This document shows, piece by piece, positions 3,628-15,384 of a DNA stretch of 64,000 bases. Under the pieces are notes generated by a model. The model was not told the DNA's origin. It saw nothing but the letters and a program-made list of their open reading frames with translations, and made no database searches. The stretch's first letter is position 1, and each line of letters begins with the position of its first letter. This DNA is from Fervidicoccaceae archaeon (lineage in GTDB: Archaea > Thermoproteota > Thermoprotei_A > Sulfolobales > Fervidicoccaceae): assembly GCA_038734945.1 (NCBI GenBank), contig JAVYOA010000009.1, positions 186,001 to 250,000 on the forward strand. The letters run 5' to 3'. The position numbers were made by a program, and so were the translations under genes.

Positions 3628-4710
3628 TCATCCCTTTGCTTTGCTAATTCTTTCCAATATTGAGTCAACAGCACCTTTCATTGTTCTCGGAAGCTCTGAG
3701 AAACCTGTTTCCAAAAATCCCCTTATTAGCAGTGAAATCGCCTCGTCCTCGCTGAAACCCTTTGTCTCCAAATACTCAAGCTCCTCTCTCTTTATTTTCC
3801 CTATGCTAGCCTCATGAGTTAGTTCAGCATCACTGGATCTCGAGTTAAGCTCTGGAATAGATATTACTTCCGAGCCCTCATCAAGAGTTATTCCTCTACA
3901 TTCAATGTGCCCTTTTACCATTTTTCCTGATGCAAATATCCTAGCCTTTGACCTTATTTTGCTCCTGTTCCTCGCCAAAAGCCTGGATATCATTTGGGAT
4001 GAAGATCCAGATCCGTTCAGAAAAACTTCCGTACTATAAGAAAGTGAGCTTTCCCCACTACCTGCAACAATCTGATCTATTCTCGATGCTGAGTTATTTC
4101 CATCTTGATGAATTGCTGTATTGAAGGAAATTGATTTGGCTTCAGAATAGTTTATGTACAAATCCTGATAGACACCATTATCTTCGATCTCTGCAGCAGT
4201 AAATGCCGAAACGTTTATGCCTGGAAGCCAGTTGTGAAGCATTATTTTGGTGAACTTAGCGTTCCGCATAACATGTATCTCCTCTAAGCTCGAATGAACA
4301 GCTTCATTGACTAAGGTAAAACAACCAGAGACTCCAACAGCACTTGCTCCATCATCTACAACCGTCAAGTTATATACTTTCTGAATCACCCCTCCTCTTC
4401 CAAGAACAAAGCAATTAAATATTGGCTCTTCAACAACAGTTCCCTTAGGCACATATAGAAATATCCCACTGTCAACACGCCTTAAGTCTCCCTGAATTCT
4501 CTTGAAGGCAAATTTTTCAAAGATATCCGGATGCTCCTTTTCTGCCTCATGTATTTCCATATAAATGACTCCCAGCTGCTCCAATCTCTTAGCAATTTTC
4601 TTGTAAGCGAAGGATTCGTTTAAAACAACCCCCCCTCCCTTTTCTAGGTCAAGTCCAAGCTCCTTTGCTCTGGAAATAGCATCTCTAAGCTTATTTTCTT
4701 CCCTGTTCAT
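3628..4710 (-). CDS. sufB: SufB/SufD-family Fe-S scaffold protein (SmsB-like)
   Basis: This 360-residue protein belongs to the SufB/SufD beta-helix family. The diagnostic C-terminal signature is present (SIPELNSRSSDAELTHEASIG, read as ISIPEL then ELTHEASIGKI), followed by the helical EELEYLETKGFSEDEA segment. It is much shorter than bacterial SufB (~470-490 aa) and lacks the long N-terminal region, which fits the minimal archaeal SufBC (SMS) systems. With the SufC ATPase, encoded 3 bp upstream, it would assemble and transfer Fe-S clusters in the cytoplasm. No second SufB/D paralogue, SufS or SufU lies nearby. A GGAGGG-like site precedes the ATG. Client proteins in this window include the Mo-hydroxylase small subunits and PorD. 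Confidence 0.88.
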   Translation of the reverse strand: MNREENKLRDAISRAKELGLDLEKGGGVVLNESFAYKKIAKRLEQLGVIYMEIHEAEKEHPDIFEKFAFKRIQGDLRRVDSGIFLYVPKGTVVEEPIFNCFVLGRGGVIQKVYNLTVVDDGASAVGVSGCFTLVNEAVHSSLEEIHVMRNAKFTKIMLHNWLPGINVSAFTAAEIEDNGVYQDLYINYSEAKSISFNTAIHQDGNNSASRIDQIVAGSGESSLSYSTEVFLNGSGSSSQMISRLLARNRSKIRSKARIFASGKMVKGHIECRGITLDEGSEVISIPELNSRSSDAELTHEASIGKIKREELEYLETKGFSEDEAISLLIRGFLETGFSELPRTMKGAVDSILERISKAKG

Positions 4711-5478: not shown

Positions 5479-5633
5479 CTGAAGAGAATATAAGCTTCTT
5501 TCATCGTCATTCCAAAAATTTTCTGAAAAACAGCAAGTTTGCCAAATGGCTGCAGCTGTTTAAGTAAGCAAACTATAGTTTTAAATATAAACATTTAAAA
5601 ATGATATTTTATGGCAATAAAGGTGGGTATCCC
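5479..5633. promoter_or_regulatory. Divergent promoter region, sufC and Mo-hydroxylase operon 1
   Basis: For the rightward operon, a TATA-like tract TTTAAATATA lies at 5580-5590, which places transcription start near 5610-5615. An AGGTGG Shine-Dalgarno follows at 5621-5626, 7 nt before a TTG in frame with the large-subunit gene. This order (TATA, start site, SD, TTG 5634) argues against the upstream ATG at 5601. For sufC, a leftward TATA-like sequence (GCTTATATTC on the minus strand) lies around 5488-5497. Confidence 0.45.
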
Positions 5634-7964
5634 TTGGCTTCTATTGACTTGGAAAGGCTAATGAACAAATGGCTTCAGGCATCAGAATTCTATGTGGTTG
5701 GGAAAAGGGTGGAAAGAACAGATAGTCTAGAGAAGGCTATGGGTATAACAAAATTTACCGAGGATTTCTATATGAAAGACATGCTATTTGTGAAGCAGAT
5801 CCTCAGCAAGCATCCTCATGCCAGGATAGTTTCCATAGATGATTCTGAAGCTAGAAGAGTAAATGGATTTTTGCGAATCGTCAGGGCCTCAGATATACCT
5901 GGAGAAAATCAGGTAGGTTATTCGCTCCCTGATCAACCACTTCTTGCTCACAAAAAGGTCAGATATGTTGGTGAACCAGTAGCCTTGGTGATAGCTAGAG
6001 ATTTCGAATCTGCTATAGAGGCTTCCAGGCTTGTAAGCGTAAGCTATGAACCCATTCCCTATATCATTAATGCAGAGGAGGCAATCAGAGAGAAAAACAT
6101 CCTAGTTCACGAGGAGAACGGCTCCAACATAGCATTCAGGACAAAGGTGAGGAAGGGAGACGTTGAAAAGGGATTTTCCGAATCTCATGTGGTTGTTGAA
6201 AACACATATAGAACAGCTCATCAAGAGCATGCCTATTTGGAAACTGAGGCCGCTATAGCAATTCCAGGCCTCGAAGGAAAGCTCACAATAATTTCTCCTT
6301 CTCAGTATCCTCATCTTACACAAAAAATTGTTTCCAAGGTACTTGGTCTGCCGGCGAGTTCTATAAGAGTTATCGTTCCATATTTAGGAGGGGGATTTGG
6401 TGGAAAAGACGATCAGGGCCCGCTCACATCCGCGAAGGCAGCTCTTGTTTCATATCTTACAGGAAAGCCATCCTTTATAATATATTCAAGAGAAGAGAGC
6501 ATTGCAGTTCATCCAAAAAGAGAAGCCACAACAATAAGGTACAAGAGCGGAGCAGATGCTGAAGGAAAGTTGAAGGCAATAGAAGTGGAAATAATTCATG
6601 ATACAGGGGCATATGCAAACAGAGGACCATTCATACTTTGGAGAGCCACCATGCATGCCTCAGGGCCATATGAGGTGCCCAATGCGAAGGTAGACGGTTA
6701 TTGCGTCTATACTAACAAAATCTATCAGGGATCATTCAGAGGCTTTGGAAACCCCTCGGTCCAGTTCGCAGCGGAAAGCCAAATGGACATTCTTGCTGAG
6801 AAGCTGGGAATTGATCCCCTTGACATTAGACTTAAGAATATTCTGACTCCTGGAGCAAGAACGATCACTGGGCAGGAGCTGGATTCTTCTGTAGGAATTA
6901 AGGATGCCCTAGAGGCTGTTGCAAAAAGAGCAGAATGGAGAGAAAAACGAATTGCATATTCAAGAGAGAGAGGCACACTCAGGAGGGGAATTGGAATAGG
7001 AGTGGCTTGGCATGGAATAAGTACATCTAGAGGTGTTCCCGACTGGTCTGCAGGAACTGTTAAAATAGAACCAGACGGTTCCGTTTCGGTTCTCGTAGGA
7101 ATTGTTGAAATAGGACAGGGATCTCCTTCGTCTTCACACAGACAGATAGTCGCTGAGGTGCTGGGAGCACCTCTCAACATGGTTCACGTCTACTTTGGAA
7201 CTTCAGATGCTCCCGACGGAGGTGCAACCCATGCCTCTAGAGGTACAGGCATAGGTGCTATCGGCATCTATGTTGCATCTATAGAACTTAGAGAGAGACT
7301 AAATGCTCTTGCAGCAAAGCTGTTGGAAACTGAACCAGAGGATATTTCAATTAGCGACGGGATAGTATCATCGAAATCTGATCCCTCTAAGAGGATTAGT
7401 TGGACCGAGCTTATTAAGAAAGCATATTCTAGCGGTATCAACATGACAGCTTCAGGGTATTTCTTTTTACCGAAAGGAAAGTTTTACGACGATATTGGTC
7501 AGGGATTTGCCTATATTTCCTATAGCTACATGGCATTAATAACTGAGGTCCAGGTAGATACGGAGACCGGAGAAGTGAAAGTTCTCAAAGTTTATCCAGC
7601 AATTTCTGCTGGGAAGGTGATAAATCCAGTGCAGGTAGAGGGTCAGATCGAGGGAGGGTTTGTCCAGGGCATGGGAATGGCCCTCATGGAATCTCTCTCT
7701 TTCAATGAAAGAGGAGAGATAGTGAACAAAGACCTAACTGATTATGTGATTCCATCGTCACTCGATGCTCCAGAAATAGAAGAGCCAATTTTCATAGAGG
7801 ACAGATTCAAGTATGGTCCTCTAGGAGCAAAAGGAGTCGGTGAGATGGCTCTAATACCTGCTCCCGCCTCTATAGCAAATGCCGTATCGCATGCTATTGG
7901 AAAAAGAGTAGTGGAACTACCTATTACAGCAGAAAAAGTTCTAAAATTAATAGAGGGGAGGTGA
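5634..7964 (+). CDS. Xanthine dehydrogenase-family molybdopterin large subunit, copy 1
   Basis: This is the Mo-cofactor subunit of a three-component xanthine dehydrogenase/aldehyde oxidase-type hydroxylase. Domain order is the a/b hammerhead (first ~120 residues, ending in the VGEPVALVIA region), then the Mo-binding domains. It retains the family motifs GGGFGGK, GSFRGFGNP, EIGQG (GQG at ~7113-7121) and the C-terminal GPLGAKGVGE, whose Glu is the catalytic base. It lacks the CSFR loop of CO dehydrogenase, so a purine, aldehyde or N-heterocycle substrate is more likely than CO. The start TTG 5634 has AGGTGG 7 nt upstream; ATG 5601 and ATG 5661 are alternatives. It is followed directly by FAD and 2Fe-2S subunits in L-M-S order. 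The true substrate cannot be read from the sequence. Confidence 0.88.
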   Translation: MASIDLERLMNKWLQASEFYVVGKRVERTDSLEKAMGITKFTEDFYMKDMLFVKQILSKHPHARIVSIDDSEARRVNGFLRIVRASDIPGENQVGYSLPDQPLLAHKKVRYVGEPVALVIARDFESAIEASRLVSVSYEPIPYIINAEEAIREKNILVHEENGSNIAFRTKVRKGDVEKGFSESHVVVENTYRTAHQEHAYLETEAAIAIPGLEGKLTIISPSQYPHLTQKIVSKVLGLPASSIRVIVPYLGGGFGGKDDQGPLTSAKAALVSYLTGKPSFIIYSREESIAVHPKREATTIRYKSGADAEGKLKAIEVEIIHDTGAYANRGPFILWRATMHASGPYEVPNAKVDGYCVYTNKIYQGSFRGFGNPSVQFAAESQMDILAEKLGIDPLDIRLKNILTPGARTITGQELDSSVGIKDALEAVAKRAEWREKRIAYSRERGTLRRGIGIGVAWHGISTSRGVPDWSAGTVKIEPDGSVSVLVGIVEIGQGSPSSSHRQIVAEVLGAPLNMVHVYFGTSDAPDGGATHASRGTGIGAIGIYVASIELRERLNALAAKLLETEPEDISISDGIVSSKSDPSKRISWTELIKKAYSSGINMTASGYFFLPKGKFYDDIGQGFAYISYSYMALITEVQVDTETGEVKVLKVYPAISAGKVINPVQVEGQIEGGFVQGMGMALMESLSFNERGEIVNKDLTDYVIPSSLDAPEIEEPIFIEDRFKYGPLGAKGVGEMALIPAPASIANAVSHAIGKRVVELPITAEKVLKLIEGR

Positions 7965-7969
7965 GTAAT

Positions 7970-8845
7970 TTGTTCTATTCACTGCCAAGCTTCGAATATA
8001 CTAGAGCAGATAGCTTAAGCGTGGCATTAGATTTACTGAAGGAAGGGAATTGGAAGCTGCTGGCAGGAGGAACAGATCTGCTAATCGATATAAAGACTGG
8101 GAGGCAAGCTCCAAAAAAACTATTGGATATATCCAGGATCAATGAGATAAGATATGTTAGGCCAAACGAAAATATAATTAGAATAGGGGGAGGCTCAAGG
8201 CTTCAGGAATTGCTCGAAAATATTGTAATCAGAGAGAGGTTGCCATTGCTGGCATCAGCTATACGAGAGATGGCGTCTTGGCAAATAAGAAACGTTGCGA
8301 CGATTGCTGGGAATCTCTGCAATGCATCTCCAGCAGCAGACTCAGCCCCTCCCCTTCTTGTCCACGAAGCAAAAGTCCGGTTGGCCTCAACAGCAGGTTC
8401 CAGAATTGTCCCTCTTAAGGACTTCTTCATAGGTCCTAGGAAAACGGTAATGAGAGATGACGAGATGCTAACAGAGATAGAAGTCCCGTCTCTTGAGGGA
8501 TATTCTTACTGGTACTATAAGCTGGGAAGGAGAAATGCTTTTACCCTCTCTGTAGTCTCTGTTGCTGTTGCCTTGAAAATAGAGGATGGGAAATTCTCAG
8601 ATGTTAGGATAGCCCTCGGATCTGTGGCACCCAAACCTGTAAGAGCCCTCAGCGTCGAGGAGGAACTGGTTGAAAGAAATGCGGATGTCTCATTAGCCTA
8701 CCGGGCAGCCGAGCTCGTCGAAAGGGACATATCGCCTATCAGCGATGTAAGGGCTTCCGCTGATTATAGAATGAAGGTTTCCAAGGTACTTATAAAAAGA
8801 GCTCTTATAGAATCGATAAAACGCTCAAGAGGTGAGCTGCTCTGA
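7970..8845 (+). CDS. Mo-hydroxylase FAD-binding medium subunit, copy 1
   Basis: This is the FAD subunit (PCMH/CoxM family, ~291 residues) that passes electrons between the 2Fe-2S subunit and its acceptor. The two flavin-binding motifs are present: AGGTDLLIDIK near residue 30 and TIAGNLCNASPAADSAPP near residue 110. The C-terminal CO_deh_flav_C region includes ALGSVAPKPVRA. A GTG at 7961 overlaps the large-subunit stop, but it lies inside the GGGGAGGTGA Shine-Dalgarno (7955-7964), so TTG 7970 is the better start. Bases 8303-8377 are identical to 13461-13535 in the second FAD-subunit gene, although the flanks have diverged. Confidence 0.9.
   Translation: MFYSLPSFEYTRADSLSVALDLLKEGNWKLLAGGTDLLIDIKTGRQAPKKLLDISRINEIRYVRPNENIIRIGGGSRLQELLENIVIRERLPLLASAIREMASWQIRNVATIAGNLCNASPAADSAPPLLVHEAKVRLASTAGSRIVPLKDFFIGPRKTVMRDDEMLTEIEVPSLEGYSYWYYKLGRRNAFTLSVVSVAVALKIEDGKFSDVRIALGSVAPKPVRALSVEEELVERNADVSLAYRAAELVERDISPISDVRASADYRMKVSKVLIKRALIESIKRSRGELL
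8303..8377 (+). repeat. 75-bp perfect repeat, copy 1 (with 13461-13535)
   Basis: This segment is identical base for base to 13461-13535, begins ATTGCTGGGAATCTCTGCAA and ends AAGCAAAAGTC. Both copies lie at the same place in paralogous FAD-subunit genes and encode the second flavin-binding motif. Identity stops abruptly on both sides: the preceding base is G here and A there, and the next bases are CGG here and ATC there. Synonymous sites are identical across 25 codons, unlike the rest of the genes, which points to gene conversion. Confidence 0.9.
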
Positions 8846-9306
8846 AAGTTTCCTTTATCTTAAATGGAGAAAAAATTGAGGTCGATGTCCCTCCCAATGA
8901 AATCCTCCTGGATACATTGAGATTAAGGCTCGGGGTTAAGGGGCCAAAGAGAGGGTGTGAGAGGGCTGAGTGCGGCACATGCACTGTGCTGCTGGATGGA
9001 AAGCCCGTTTATTCATGCAATATCTTAACAGTCCAGGCTGATGGAAGGGAAATAATGACTATTGAGAAGATCTCTCAGGAAGCTCTTGGCAGAAAGATAG
9101 CAGAATCATTCTCCAGGGAAGGGGCAGTTCAGTGCGGCTTCTGCACCCCAGGGTTCGTTACTGTAGCATATGCCCTAGCTGCGTCCAATTCAAATCCGAA
9201 TGAAGCTGAAATTAGAAAGAGCATTGAAGGTAATCTATGCAGATGCACTGGCTATAAAAAAATTGTTAATGCAATAATGAAGAGCCTGTCTTCTGAGTCT
9301 AAGTGA
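8842..9306 (+). CDS. Mo-hydroxylase 2Fe-2S small subunit, copy 1 (probable CTG start)
   Basis: This is the iron-sulfur subunit with two [2Fe-2S] clusters. The plant-type cluster motif reads C-ERAE-C-GT-C and then a later C (YSC). The C-terminal helical cluster has QCGFCTPG and LCRCTGYKKI. The frame is open back to a TGA at 8833-8835, and the conserved N-terminal strand (KVSFILNGEKIEVDV) is encoded before any ATG, GTG or TTG; the first of these, TTG 8917, would delete it. CTG at 8842 overlaps the preceding stop as CTGA, has GAGGTGA at 8829-8835 six bases upstream, and gives 154 residues, exactly the length of the paralogue at 14000. CTG initiation is therefore inferred. The gene is convergent with and overlaps the amidohydrolase gene. 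Confidence 0.87.
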   Translation: MKVSFILNGEKIEVDVPPNEILLDTLRLRLGVKGPKRGCERAECGTCTVLLDGKPVYSCNILTVQADGREIMTIEKISQEALGRKIAESFSREGAVQCGFCTPGFVTVAYALAASNSNPNEAEIRKSIEGNLCRCTGYKKIVNAIMKSLSSESK

Positions 9307-10642
9307 ATTTCTTCAACTGCCTTCCAGAACCCTTCCTTCTTATTTCTCCGTTCTCCACTATTATCTCTCCTCTAAGCAACGTCTTTTCAACCTTTCCCTT
9401 CAGCTTCATTCCTATGAAGGGAGTAATGGTACTCTTTGTTATCAACCATTCCTCCTTTACAATTGTTTCTCCATTTTTATCTACTATTACTATATCTCCA
9501 TCGCTTTTTCCAGGAATCAGCTCTCCCTTCATCGGCCATATTCCCAGAAGCTTTGCTGGATTCCTTGAGAGCAATCTTGGAATGTCGGTCAGAGAGATCA
9601 GGTTATCTAGAGCCAAGTTGAGGAGAGAAGGAAGCAGCAACTGCACCCCAATGAATCCAGCCGGAACATCCCATATGCTCTCCCTGCTTTTTTCCTCAGG
9701 AGAATGTGGAGCATGATCTGAGCCCACAGAATAGATGACTCCAGACTTGATGGCCTCTAGCAATGCCTTTCTATGCTCCTCCTCTCTTATAGGAGGATTC
9801 ACCTTCAACTTACTGCCAAAAGTACTGTAATGGCTTCTATCAAAATAGAGGTAGTGGGGGCAAGTTTCCCCCGTCATTCTTACACCCTCCTCGAAAGCTT
9901 TCAATAAAAAGTCCAGAGTTCCCTTTGAGGAAATGTGAGCTACATGCGCCTTTCCCCCAGTCTCCTTTGCTATCATATAAATCTTTGCTACGGCGATTTC
10001 CTCCGTAATAGGAGGTCTTGAAAGGAGATGAGCTGAAGGATCATTCCTTCCTGATGACTTCATTCTCTCGGTGAACAGGCTAATGAGAGAACTATCCTCA
10101 GCATGAAAAACAACTGGAAAATCGTACTTTTTCGAGAGCTCCAGAGCCCTGTAAATCGTAGAATTATCCGGAGATGGAAGATTCCCAGTAGTAGGGCCAA
10201 GGAATGCCTTAAATGCGATCGCACCTTCCTTGAGCATATACTCCAATTTATTTACGCTCTCATCTGTTAGGACTCCGTAGAGAGCAAAATCAACTGTTGC
10301 CTTCTTTTTCAATAGCTCAGCTTTCTCAGCAATTCTTTCTCTACTATCAACAGGCGGTATAGTATTTGGCATCTCAGCGACAGTAGTTACTCCCCCCACA
10401 GCAGCAGCCATTGTTCCATGTTCAAAATCATCCTTATATTCAAGTCCTGGTTCCCTCATATGCACGTGCTCATCAATTATTCCCGGGAAAACAAGCTTTC
10501 CAGTAGCATCTATAACCTCATCTGTCCCTTCTCTCGATAGCTGCTTCCCAATTTTTTCGATCTTGCCATCTGAAATTAGAATATCACCATCGAATACCAG
10601 CTCTGGAGTGACTATGTGTCCACCCTTTATCAAAACATTCAT
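9299..10642 (-). CDS. Dihydroorotase/allantoinase-family cyclic amidohydrolase
   Basis: This 447-residue zinc amidohydrolase opens cyclic amide rings. Visible metal and substrate residues are HVHMREPG (H59, H61, R63), the carboxylated-Lys region IAFKAFLGPT (~residue 147), VVFHAED, HVAHIS and GSDHAPH. The REPGxExKDDF and MPNT elements favour dihydroorotase. The region after GSDHAPH (IWDVPAGFIGVQ) is closer to allantoinase-type relatives. It sits between two Mo-hydroxylase operons, on the opposite strand and 8 bp overlapped with the first. An ATCase gene lies 3.8 kb away, so it may be biosynthetic PyrC or a catabolic hydrolase of purine-ring products. ATG start; divergent promoter shared with the second hydroxylase operon. 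Confidence 0.82.
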   Translation of the reverse strand: MNVLIKGGHIVTPELVFDGDILISDGKIEKIGKQLSREGTDEVIDATGKLVFPGIIDEHVHMREPGLEYKDDFEHGTMAAAVGGVTTVAEMPNTIPPVDSRERIAEKAELLKKKATVDFALYGVLTDESVNKLEYMLKEGAIAFKAFLGPTTGNLPSPDNSTIYRALELSKKYDFPVVFHAEDSSLISLFTERMKSSGRNDPSAHLLSRPPITEEIAVAKIYMIAKETGGKAHVAHISSKGTLDFLLKAFEEGVRMTGETCPHYLYFDRSHYSTFGSKLKVNPPIREEEHRKALLEAIKSGVIYSVGSDHAPHSPEEKSRESIWDVPAGFIGVQLLLPSLLNLALDNLISLTDIPRLLSRNPAKLLGIWPMKGELIPGKSDGDIVIVDKNGETIVKEEWLITKSTITPFIGMKLKGKVEKTLLRGEIIVENGEIRRKGSGRQLKKFT

Positions 10643-13101: not shown

Positions 13102-14003
13102 GCGTGCTCAATAGGATCAACACGAGAGTTATACCAGCATCCTTTGAATACCATGAACCAAAAACCCTCGATGAAGCTCTGAAGCTCTTGAATGAACTTG
13201 GAGATGCTGCTAGGATTCTAGCTGGTGGAACAGATCTGCTGGTCAAGATGAAGAGCAGGTCAATCGAGCCAAAACACATCATTAACATAAAGAGAATTGA
13301 GGGACTTAGATACATATCTGAGGAAGGAGGACTTATAAAGATAGGAGCTCTAACAACATGGAGAGATCTTGAGAGATCCCAGCAGATTAGACAGAAGCTT
13401 CCAGCTCTCTACGATGCTGTTAAATCAATGGGGAGTGTTCAAGTAAGGAGTATGGCCACAATTGCTGGGAATCTCTGCAATGCATCTCCAGCAGCAGACT
13501 CAGCCCCTCCCCTTCTTGTCCACGAAGCAAAAGTCATCGCTGTCAGCCTTAGGGGGAAGAGAACCATTCCAATAGATCAGCTCTTCCTATCTCCAGGTAA
13601 AACTTCTCTATTGCCAAGTGAAATGCTCATTGAGATAGATATACCGCTTCCTCCTTACAACAGCTCCTCATCGTTCCTGAAACTGGCAAGGACTTCCATG
13701 GATCTTGCTAAAGCCAGTGCAGCAGTGTATATAAAAATGAATGGGGATGTGGTGGAAGATGCAAAGATAGCATTGGGTTCCGTGGCACCAACTCCAATCT
13801 TGGCTAAGAAAGCTGCTGCTGAGCTAATCGGAAAGAAAGCTTCAGAAGAGGTAATTTCAAAAGCTTCCAGCATTGTCGCAAGTGAAATTTCCCCAATTGA
13901 TGATATACGGTCAACGGCATTCTATAGAAGAAAAGTTTCTCCTATCTTGGTTTCCGATGCAATTCACATGGCAATTTCTAGACTTCGAGGTGATGGAGCT
14001 TGA
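13098..14003 (+). CDS. Mo-hydroxylase FAD-binding medium subunit, copy 2
   Basis: This is the 301-residue FAD subunit of the second hydroxylase. It carries AGGTDLLVKMKS near residue 42 and TIAGNLCNASPAADSAPP near residue 122, with the CO_deh_flav_C domain after that (ALGSVAPTPILAK). It starts at an ATG overlapping the large-subunit stop (ATGA) and ends in an ATGA overlap with the 2Fe-2S gene, so the operon is translationally coupled. Outside bases 13461-13535 it is only moderately similar to copy 1. Confidence 0.9.
   Translation: MSVLNRINTRVIPASFEYHEPKTLDEALKLLNELGDAARILAGGTDLLVKMKSRSIEPKHIINIKRIEGLRYISEEGGLIKIGALTTWRDLERSQQIRQKLPALYDAVKSMGSVQVRSMATIAGNLCNASPAADSAPPLLVHEAKVIAVSLRGKRTIPIDQLFLSPGKTSLLPSEMLIEIDIPLPPYNSSSSFLKLARTSMDLAKASAAVYIKMNGDVVEDAKIALGSVAPTPILAKKAAAELIGKKASEEVISKASSIVASEISPIDDIRSTAFYRRKVSPILVSDAIHMAISRLRGDGA
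13461..13535 (+). repeat. 75-bp perfect repeat, copy 2 (with 8303-8377)
   Basis: This is the partner of the identical tract at 8303-8377 and lies at the homologous place in the second FAD-subunit gene. The two copies are in direct orientation and about 5.2 kb apart, so the tract is also a possible site for homologous deletion of the intervening amidohydrolase and large-subunit genes. Confidence 0.9.
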
Positions 14004-14464
14004 TGATCAGTTTTAATCTCGATGGAAGAAAAGTCTCGATTGACATTGAGCCGAATGAGCTTCTACTGAATGTCCTCAGAGATAGGCTTGGAGTCAACGT
14101 TCCCAAATATTCCTGTGGGATAGGAGAGTGTGGGGCATGCACTGTTCTCATAGACGGAGAACCCCATCTTTCTTGTTTAACTCTGGCTGTGGACGTCAAT
14201 GGAAAGGATGTCAGGACGGCTTCAGGATTGGATGAAAAAGATCTCTCTATAATTTCGAAGACCTTTGCTGAGGAGGGAGCAGTGCAGTGCGGCTACTGTT
14301 CCCCAGGAATCGCTGTTATGACGTACAGTCTTCTGCAAGAAAAAGAGAAAGTAAGTGAAGATGAAGTGAGAGAGTATTTGAGAGGAAATCTCTGCAGATG
14401 CACCGGCTATGTAAATATCGTGAGAGCTGTTCTAAAGGCAGCTGAAATGAGGGGAAAAAAATGA
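14000..14464 (+). CDS. Mo-hydroxylase 2Fe-2S small subunit, copy 2
   Basis: This is the 154-residue [2Fe-2S] subunit of the second hydroxylase. The first cluster motif is C-GIGE-C-GA-C plus a later C (LSC). The second cluster region has QCGYCSPG and LCRCTGYVNI. ATG 14000 overlaps the medium-subunit stop as ATGA, with GAGGTGA at about 13987-13993 upstream. Its own stop overlaps the start of the ATCase-like gene, also as ATGA. It is the standard against which the CTG start of copy 1 can be judged, since both proteins are then the same length. Confidence 0.93.
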   Translation: MMISFNLDGRKVSIDIEPNELLLNVLRDRLGVNVPKYSCGIGECGACTVLIDGEPHLSCLTLAVDVNGKDVRTASGLDEKDLSIISKTFAEEGAVQCGYCSPGIAVMTYSLLQEKEKVSEDEVREYLRGNLCRCTGYVNIVRAVLKAAEMRGKK

Positions 14465-15384
14465 AAGAGCTAAAGGGAAGAGACATACTTTCATCATTTG
14501 ACTTCGATAGAGAAACTGTAGAGCATCTATTTGCCGTTGCTGATTATCTGAAAAAAGAGCTCAGTGAGAGAAAGCTCAAAATTGCTGAGGGAAGAATACT
14601 GGCAACAGTTTTCTTGGAGCCAAGCACGAGAACTAAGCTGAGCTTCCAGATGGCAATGCTCAAGCTCGGAGGGAGTTACATAGACTTTCTACCTGAAACG
14701 AGCTCCCTCCAGAAGGGAGAAAGCGACATCGATACACTGAAGATCATAGATAACTACGACCCGGATCTGATAGTGTTGAGGCAAAGCAAGCCGTTCTTTC
14801 CACACAAAATCAAGGATGAGCTGAGAGCACCTATCATAAATGGGGGAGATGGCACTAATGAGCATCCGACGCAGGCATTGCTGGATGCCTATACTATTTG
14901 GAAAGAGATAGGATCGCTCGATGGTTTGAAGATCGGCTTCATGGGAGATCTGAAGTATGGTAGAACCGCACCGTCTCTCTCATATCTTCTCTCTTTCTTC
15001 AAGGGAGTAAAGATCTTCTACATTTCTCCGAAGGAGCTGAGAATAAGAGACGAGGTAAAGGAAAAAATCAAATCAAGGGTAACTTTTCAGGAGTTCGAAA
15101 GATTAGAGGAAATCTGCGAGGACCTTGACGTTCTCTATGTAACTAGACTGCAAAAGGAGAGGTTCAGCAATCAGGAAGACTATGAAAGGCTAAAATCAAG
15201 CTATATTGTGGATCGAAGAACTCTGTTAAAATTGAAAAGAATTCCAATAATAATGCATCCCCTCCCAAGAGTTTGGGAGTTGGCAACAGATGTGGACTCC
15301 CTTCCTCAGGCTAAGTACTTTGAGCAGGCTAGAAATGGGATGTTTATTAGAGCAGCCCTTATCAAAGAAATTTTAGGTCTGTAA
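14461..15384 (+). CDS. pyrB: Aspartate carbamoyltransferase catalytic chain
   Basis: This 307-residue protein carries the full ATCase residue set: carbamoyl-phosphate loop STRT (S55-T58), 80s loop SSLQKGES, HPTQ, the ATCase-type MGDLKYGRT, YVTRLQKERF (aspartate-binding Arg/Gln), HPLPR and a final QARNGMFIRAALI. ATCase condenses carbamoyl phosphate with aspartate in pyrimidine synthesis. Two things are odd. It overlaps the 2Fe-2S gene by ATGA, placing it fourth in a molybdenum hydroxylase operon, and no pyrI regulatory chain follows. It may be the biosynthetic enzyme in an unusual operon, or a carbamoyltransferase recruited to catabolism as proposed for ygeW beside xdh genes in E. coli. The residues favour aspartate as acceptor. 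Confidence 0.88.
   Translation: MKELKGRDILSSFDFDRETVEHLFAVADYLKKELSERKLKIAEGRILATVFLEPSTRTKLSFQMAMLKLGGSYIDFLPETSSLQKGESDIDTLKIIDNYDPDLIVLRQSKPFFPHKIKDELRAPIINGGDGTNEHPTQALLDAYTIWKEIGSLDGLKIGFMGDLKYGRTAPSLSYLLSFFKGVKIFYISPKELRIRDEVKEKIKSRVTFQEFERLEEICEDLDVLYVTRLQKERFSNQEDYERLKSSYIVDRRTLLKLKRIPIIMHPLPRVWELATDVDSLPQAKYFEQARNGMFIRAALIKEILGL

Follow-up and report, generated by a model that had tools for sequence, protein, structure and literature searches.

Non-canonical CTG Starts in Bacteria and Archaea

CUG accounts for 0.024% of the start codons in bacteria, and in Escherichia coli it yields 0.86% of the output of AUG (PMC11497404). Evolutionary switches from AUG to CUG were found for two of 61,358 ancestral AUG starts in an analysis of 36 genome triplets (PMC5622118). 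In archaea, a CTG start has been assigned to 5% of the unannotated small open reading frames (sORFs) of Methanosarcina mazei on the basis of Ribo-seq (PMC11456600), and for HVO_1510 of Haloferax volcanii an in-frame CTG was proposed as start codon; peptides map upstream of Met-93 in this case, but the exact start is uncertain (PMC8305020). At overlapping archaeal gene pairs, translation can proceed by termination-reinitiation, for which a distal Shine-Dalgarno (SD) sequence is important (reviewed in PMC7531240). In a partial search of the literature, we found no report of a CTG start in Thermoproteota. The gene described here, which encodes a 2Fe-2S subunit and presumably starts with CTG, is a further example of this rare, already known kind of start.

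The First 2Fe-2S Subunit Gene and Its Operon

The window, by which we mean the whole stretch of 64,000 nucleotides that was analyzed, is part of contig C9 of genome G000 (1.34 Mb, 9 contigs, 99.95% complete), which stems from a hot-spring archaeon, a Fervidicoccus-like member of the Thermoproteota. The features that are relevant for the start codon assignment are the following (window coordinates):

5601 to 7964, plus strand: molybdopterin-binding large subunit, same operon as the 2Fe-2S gene (domain matches)
7961 to 8845, plus strand: FAD subunit, upstream gene (domain matches FAD_binding_5 and CO_deh_flav_C), with CTC as last codon and TGA as stop
8829 to 8835, plus strand: Shine-Dalgarno sequence GAGGTGA within the 3' end of the upstream gene, perfect 7-nt anti-SD match, spacer of 6 nt
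8842 to 8844, plus strand: CTG, inferred start codon, aligned with the canonical starts of relatives and overlapping the upstream stop as CTGA
8842 to 9306, plus strand: 2Fe-2S subunit (154 aa) of a molybdenum hydroxylase from the xanthine dehydrogenase family (Fer2 and Fer2_2 domains; CutS/CoxS-type structures)
8845 to 8916, plus strand: codons 2–25, coding only with the CTG start, N-terminal Fer2 stretch (pN/pS; Fer2 match)
8917 to 8919, plus strand: TTG, first canonical in-frame start, probably an internal Leu codon (SD scan; codons of relatives)
14000 to 14464, plus strand: paralogous 2Fe-2S subunit with SD sequence GAGGTGAT, start at TTG 14000 or ATG 14003

The 154-aa protein matches the Pfam models Fer2 with 29.9 bits (cut-off 21) and Fer2_2 with 95.6 bits (cut-off 30.3), and its eight cluster-ligand cysteines (C39, C44, C47, C59, C98, C101, C133, and C135) are all invariant in alignment A1. 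The scores stay below the equivalog cut-offs of the NCBIfam models NF041020 (glyceraldehyde dehydrogenase gamma; 174.8 versus 290 bits) and NF043084 (XdhC; 163.8 versus 217 bits). Judged by its sequence, the gene product is a molybdenum hydroxylase small subunit that belongs to the xanthine dehydrogenase/CO dehydrogenase family. The two molybdenum hydroxylase operons of the window are interleaved with an amidohydrolase gene (9299–10642), which scores above the cut-offs of the allantoinase and the dihydroorotase models alike, and with a gene that exceeds the cut-off for aspartate carbamoyltransferase (14461–15384), a neighborhood that would fit either pyrimidine synthesis or purine breakdown.

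The Reading Frame Offers No Canonical Start Upstream of TTG 8917

The 2Fe-2S frame is bounded upstream by an in-frame TGA (8833–8835), which is itself part of the GAGGTGA motif, and continues openly from there as GCT GCT CTG AAA GTT TCC TTT ATC TTA AAT GGA and so on. Between this stop and TTG 8917 there is no ATG, GTG, or TTG in the frame. The initial annotation had described the frame in this way and had expected annotation tools to truncate the gene by 25 residues; both statements are borne out by the sequence, the latter for gene finders that are limited to ATG, GTG, and TTG, as the protein comprises 154 aa from CTG 8842 but 129 aa from TTG 8917. It had also placed GAGGTGA 6 nt before CTG 8842 and noted that the CTG overlaps the stop codon of the previous gene as CTGA. 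We found the motif at 8829–8835, where it matches the 3' end of the host 16S rRNA, and the 4-nt overlap at 8842–8845.

For the paralogous gene the picture had to be corrected. An ATGA overlap had been suggested at position 14000, but the sequence there reads TTGATGA, so that the overlap is TTGA, with the TTG at 14000–14002 and the TGA at 14001–14003. Accordingly, the earlier statement that both proteins have exactly 154 residues holds for the first gene when it is read from CTG, whereas for the paralogue it holds only if TTG 14000 is the start; from ATG 14003 the protein has 153 residues.

In order to judge the strength of the ribosome-binding site, we compared it with the 16S rRNA 3' end of the same genome, GGATCACCTCCT, with which GAGGTGA pairs over 7 nt without mismatch. 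As background, 459 gene calls from a 464-kb sample of the genome were used. An anti-SD match of at least 7 nt at a spacing of 4–9 nt occurs at 0.23% of 102,997 internal codons, compared to 9% of the best start candidates. Since such a match is present at only 9% of the best starts, the GAGGTGA site is stronger than that of most starts in the genome. At TTG 8917, no SD match of 5 nt or more to the host anti-SD was found. The other near-cognate codons before TTG 8917 (ATC 8857, ATT 8875, and ATC 8902) have either no SD match or one of 4 nt at best, which agrees with the earlier view that CTG 8842 is the sole near-cognate codon in the right context.

Relatives Carry ATG or GTG at the Aligned Position

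The position was compared with the two congeneric genomes G001 and G002, the closest relatives among the genomes compared, whose loci match the records L034 (a Thermoprotei MAG) and L035 (a Fervidicoccus sp. MAG). In both congeners, the proteins of which share 73–74% identity with the protein of the window, the codon that aligns with CTG 8842 is ATG. Further out in the order, six orthologue records have ATG at this position (L007, L008, and L011 to L014) and seven have GTG (L009, L010, L015 to L018, and L036). The check proposed at the outset, namely whether close relatives have ATG at this position, thus had a positive outcome for both congeners, with ATG or GTG further out. In none of the other relatives found is there a CTG at the aligned start. 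One of the orthologous matches, L015 (G046:C1:736506-736952) from another genome, was reported with one internal TAA.

The gene arrangement is shared as well. In L034, the ATG of the orthologue (position 4089) overlaps the upstream stop as ATGA, which is the same 4-nt architecture as CTGA, whereas in L035 a stop and a short spacer separate the FAD gene from the 2Fe-2S start. Operon order and spacing agree with the congeners, and both of these keep a second 2Fe-2S copy about 5.15 kb downstream. L034 has ATG and L035 has TTG at the start that aligns with that of the paralogue at 14000. At the position of TTG 8917, the relatives have Leu codons (CTC, TTG, CTG, or CTA).

Codons 2–25 Are Conserved as Protein

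The initial annotation had further held that a conserved N terminus is encoded before TTG 8917, and this is supported both by the selection on codons 2–25 and by the Fer2 domain, which starts in this stretch. Against the two congeners, pN amounts to 0.159 and 0.163 for codons 2–25, with a pS of about 1.0, and to 0.168 and 0.188 for codons 26–148; at synonymous sites, both parts are close to saturation. Since pN in codons 2–25 equals that of the rest of the gene, the stretch before TTG 8917 is kept as protein. The Pfam Fer2 match (residues 6–59) disappears when the protein is made to begin at TTG 8917, and solved CutS/CoxS-type small subunits (for example, 4zoh_C and 1ffu_A) align with the 154-aa protein from residue 2–7 onward.

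Other Probable Non-canonical Starts in the Genome

The 464-kb sample of G000 with its 459 gene calls was also surveyed for genes with a coding signal that extends far beyond the first canonical start in the 5' direction. At least 3 of the 459 sampled genes have no plausible canonical start (two with CTG and one with ATT). The second SD-led CTG belongs to an ABC transporter permease gene (BPD_transp_1; C9:106365, minus strand; L120:6365), where GGTGAT lies 5 nt upstream; in the congeners, the start of this gene is a TTG one codon further in. This CTG is a second probable CTG start in the genome. The ATT (C9:91069, plus strand) belongs to a radical SAM gene (L173), in which the first GTG comes only behind the CxxxCxxC motif, and this ATT aligns with ATG in G001 and G004. 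In the congener G002, the aligned start is ATA, with GAGGTGA at a spacing of 5 nt.

Three further genes gave no clear case of a non-canonical start. A cation-efflux (CDF) gene at C9:159445-159453 reads GTG ACT TGA TCC and so on, with TGA at codon 3, where the congener G001 has AGA; here, the TGA could represent a premature stop, an error, or a sign of a different start. It is the only candidate for a premature stop in the survey, which detects only part of such cases. In a cstA-like gene (C9:171466 to approximately 173600, minus strand), a few hundred extra bases separate the two parts of the gene, and this extra sequence is possibly the remnant of a mobile element. The third is a serine-recombinase-like ORF at G000:C2:342049 (IS607 TnpA type, as judged by eye), which shows an apparent frame break near GGGGGATGAAGGAGG.

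At least three genes out of 459, together with a radical SAM gene that has near-cognate starts in two species (ATT here and ATA in G002), could be read as a sign of relaxed start-codon discrimination in the Fervidicoccus lineage, in which near-cognate starts (CTG, ATT, and ATA) would be much more frequent than usual, with strong SD sequences and overlapping gene ends as compensation. We regard this idea as conceivable but rather doubtful.

Interpretation of CTG 8842 and Rival Explanations

Overall, the reading proposed at the beginning is supported by the ATG or GTG in relatives, the selection on codons 2–25, and the fit of the SD sequence, and translation of the first 2Fe-2S subunit gene probably does begin at CTG 8842 (estimated probability about 0.86). 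We infer initiation at this codon from the sequence, the alignment, the SD match, and the selection. The 7-bp SD/anti-SD helix would hold either ribosomes that terminate on the FAD gene or 30S subunits that GAGGTGA has recruited, and the 6-nt spacer would place the CUG in the P site. There, the initiator Met-tRNA (CAU) would read CUG with a mismatch at the first position, presumably with methionine as first residue. The strong SD sequence and the 4-nt overlap, the latter by termination-reinitiation, plausibly offset the weak codon, so that translation of the two genes may be coupled and expression adequate. The ancestral codon would have been ATG or GTG, from which a single base change leads to CTG. 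An initiator tRNA-Met with an unusual anticodon stem could possibly relax the discrimination against CUG and was searched for with this in mind, but no initiator tRNA-Met was located in G000 by ARAGORN, an Rfam tRNA search, or two anticodon-stem patterns; the gene may be interrupted by an intron, split, or located in a gap.

Several points stand against a CTG start: CUG is a poor start codon, no relative found shares the CTG, and nothing in the upstream gene forces a C at 8842. This base is at the same time the final position of CTC (Leu), with which the coding part of the FAD gene ends; any base at 8842 would be silent there, and a canonical start would result from A, G, or T alike. Since all four bases are silent upstream, the CTG is no by-product of the gene overlap, and coding constraint in the upstream gene was rejected as a cause of C 8842. 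The same silence would fit a base-calling or assembly error at C 8842 that hides a true ATG, GTG, or TTG, and so would the canonical codon in all relatives at the aligned position. Yet in the sampled genes the possible substitutions that create a stop outnumber those that destroy a start by 15:1 and those that give CTG by 106:1. If the three lost canonical starts (two CTG and one ATT) were due to errors, tens of premature stops would be predicted, but at most one candidate was seen. The broken cstA gene has extra sequence between its two parts and no lone indel, and with 9 contigs the assembly reaches a completeness of 99.95%. Since premature stops are almost absent, we judge a random base error to be unlikely. 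Somewhat less probable still is that the start was lost recently, so that the CTG barely initiates, little subunit is made, and the gene is heading to decay. The weakness of CUG in E. coli and the restriction of the CTG to this genome among those found would be in line with such a loss, but the remainder of the gene, in which all eight cluster cysteines are present, is intact and evolves under selection, the SD sequence is strong, and the operon keeps the order and spacing seen in the congeners.

That translation begins at TTG 8917 and yields 129 aa, the annotation to be expected from gene finders that accept only ATG, GTG, and TTG, can be considered highly improbable. TTG 8917 is the first canonical start in the frame, but it lacks an SD sequence, its use would cost the N-terminal region of Fer2, the codons before it are under selection at the protein level, and relatives have an ordinary Leu codon there. 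Hardly any weight is to be given, either, to a fusion of the FAD and 2Fe-2S subunits by a -1 frameshift where the FAD gene ends. The two frames do overlap at 8836–8845, but no slippery heptamer was seen in the sequence and the proteins are separate in the relatives, in L035 even with a stop and spacer in between, so that this fusion was rejected.

Comparison With Known CTG Starts and Small Subunits

The CTG start proposed here resembles the rare CUG starts of bacteria (PMC11497404, PMC5622118) in that a near-cognate codon stands where relatives have a canonical one. It differs from them in that the gene belongs to an archaeon with initiation of the aIF2 type, whereas theirs is of the IF2 type, and in that the start is deduced by comparison. 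With HVO_1510 it shares the archaeal host, the trouble with start assignment, the conserved N-terminal region, and the in-frame CTG. HVO_1510 has peptides but an uncertain start, whereas here the position is set by the SD sequence and the congeners. Like the sORFs of M. mazei, the gene is an archaeal ORF with an assigned CTG start, but those are new short ORFs, whereas the gene of the window encodes a conserved enzyme subunit. Compared to the small subunits of the CoxS/XdhC type (PDB 4zoh_C, 1ffu_A, and 1n5w_A), the protein has the same Fer2 and Fer2_2 domains, the same eight cysteines, and the same large–FAD–small operon; it is the start codon alone that is unusual here. Its scores stay below the NCBIfam subfamily cut-offs. 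The assignment would correct an N-terminal truncation made by gene finders that are limited to ATG, GTG, and TTG, and it would add a CTG start from an archaeon, with its position fixed by the SD sequence, the overlap, and the congeners. Together with the two further cases in the genome, it would form a small set for testing how strictly archaeal initiation of the aIF1/aIF2 type discriminates against near-cognate codons, for which the efficiency figures that we found are from E. coli only.
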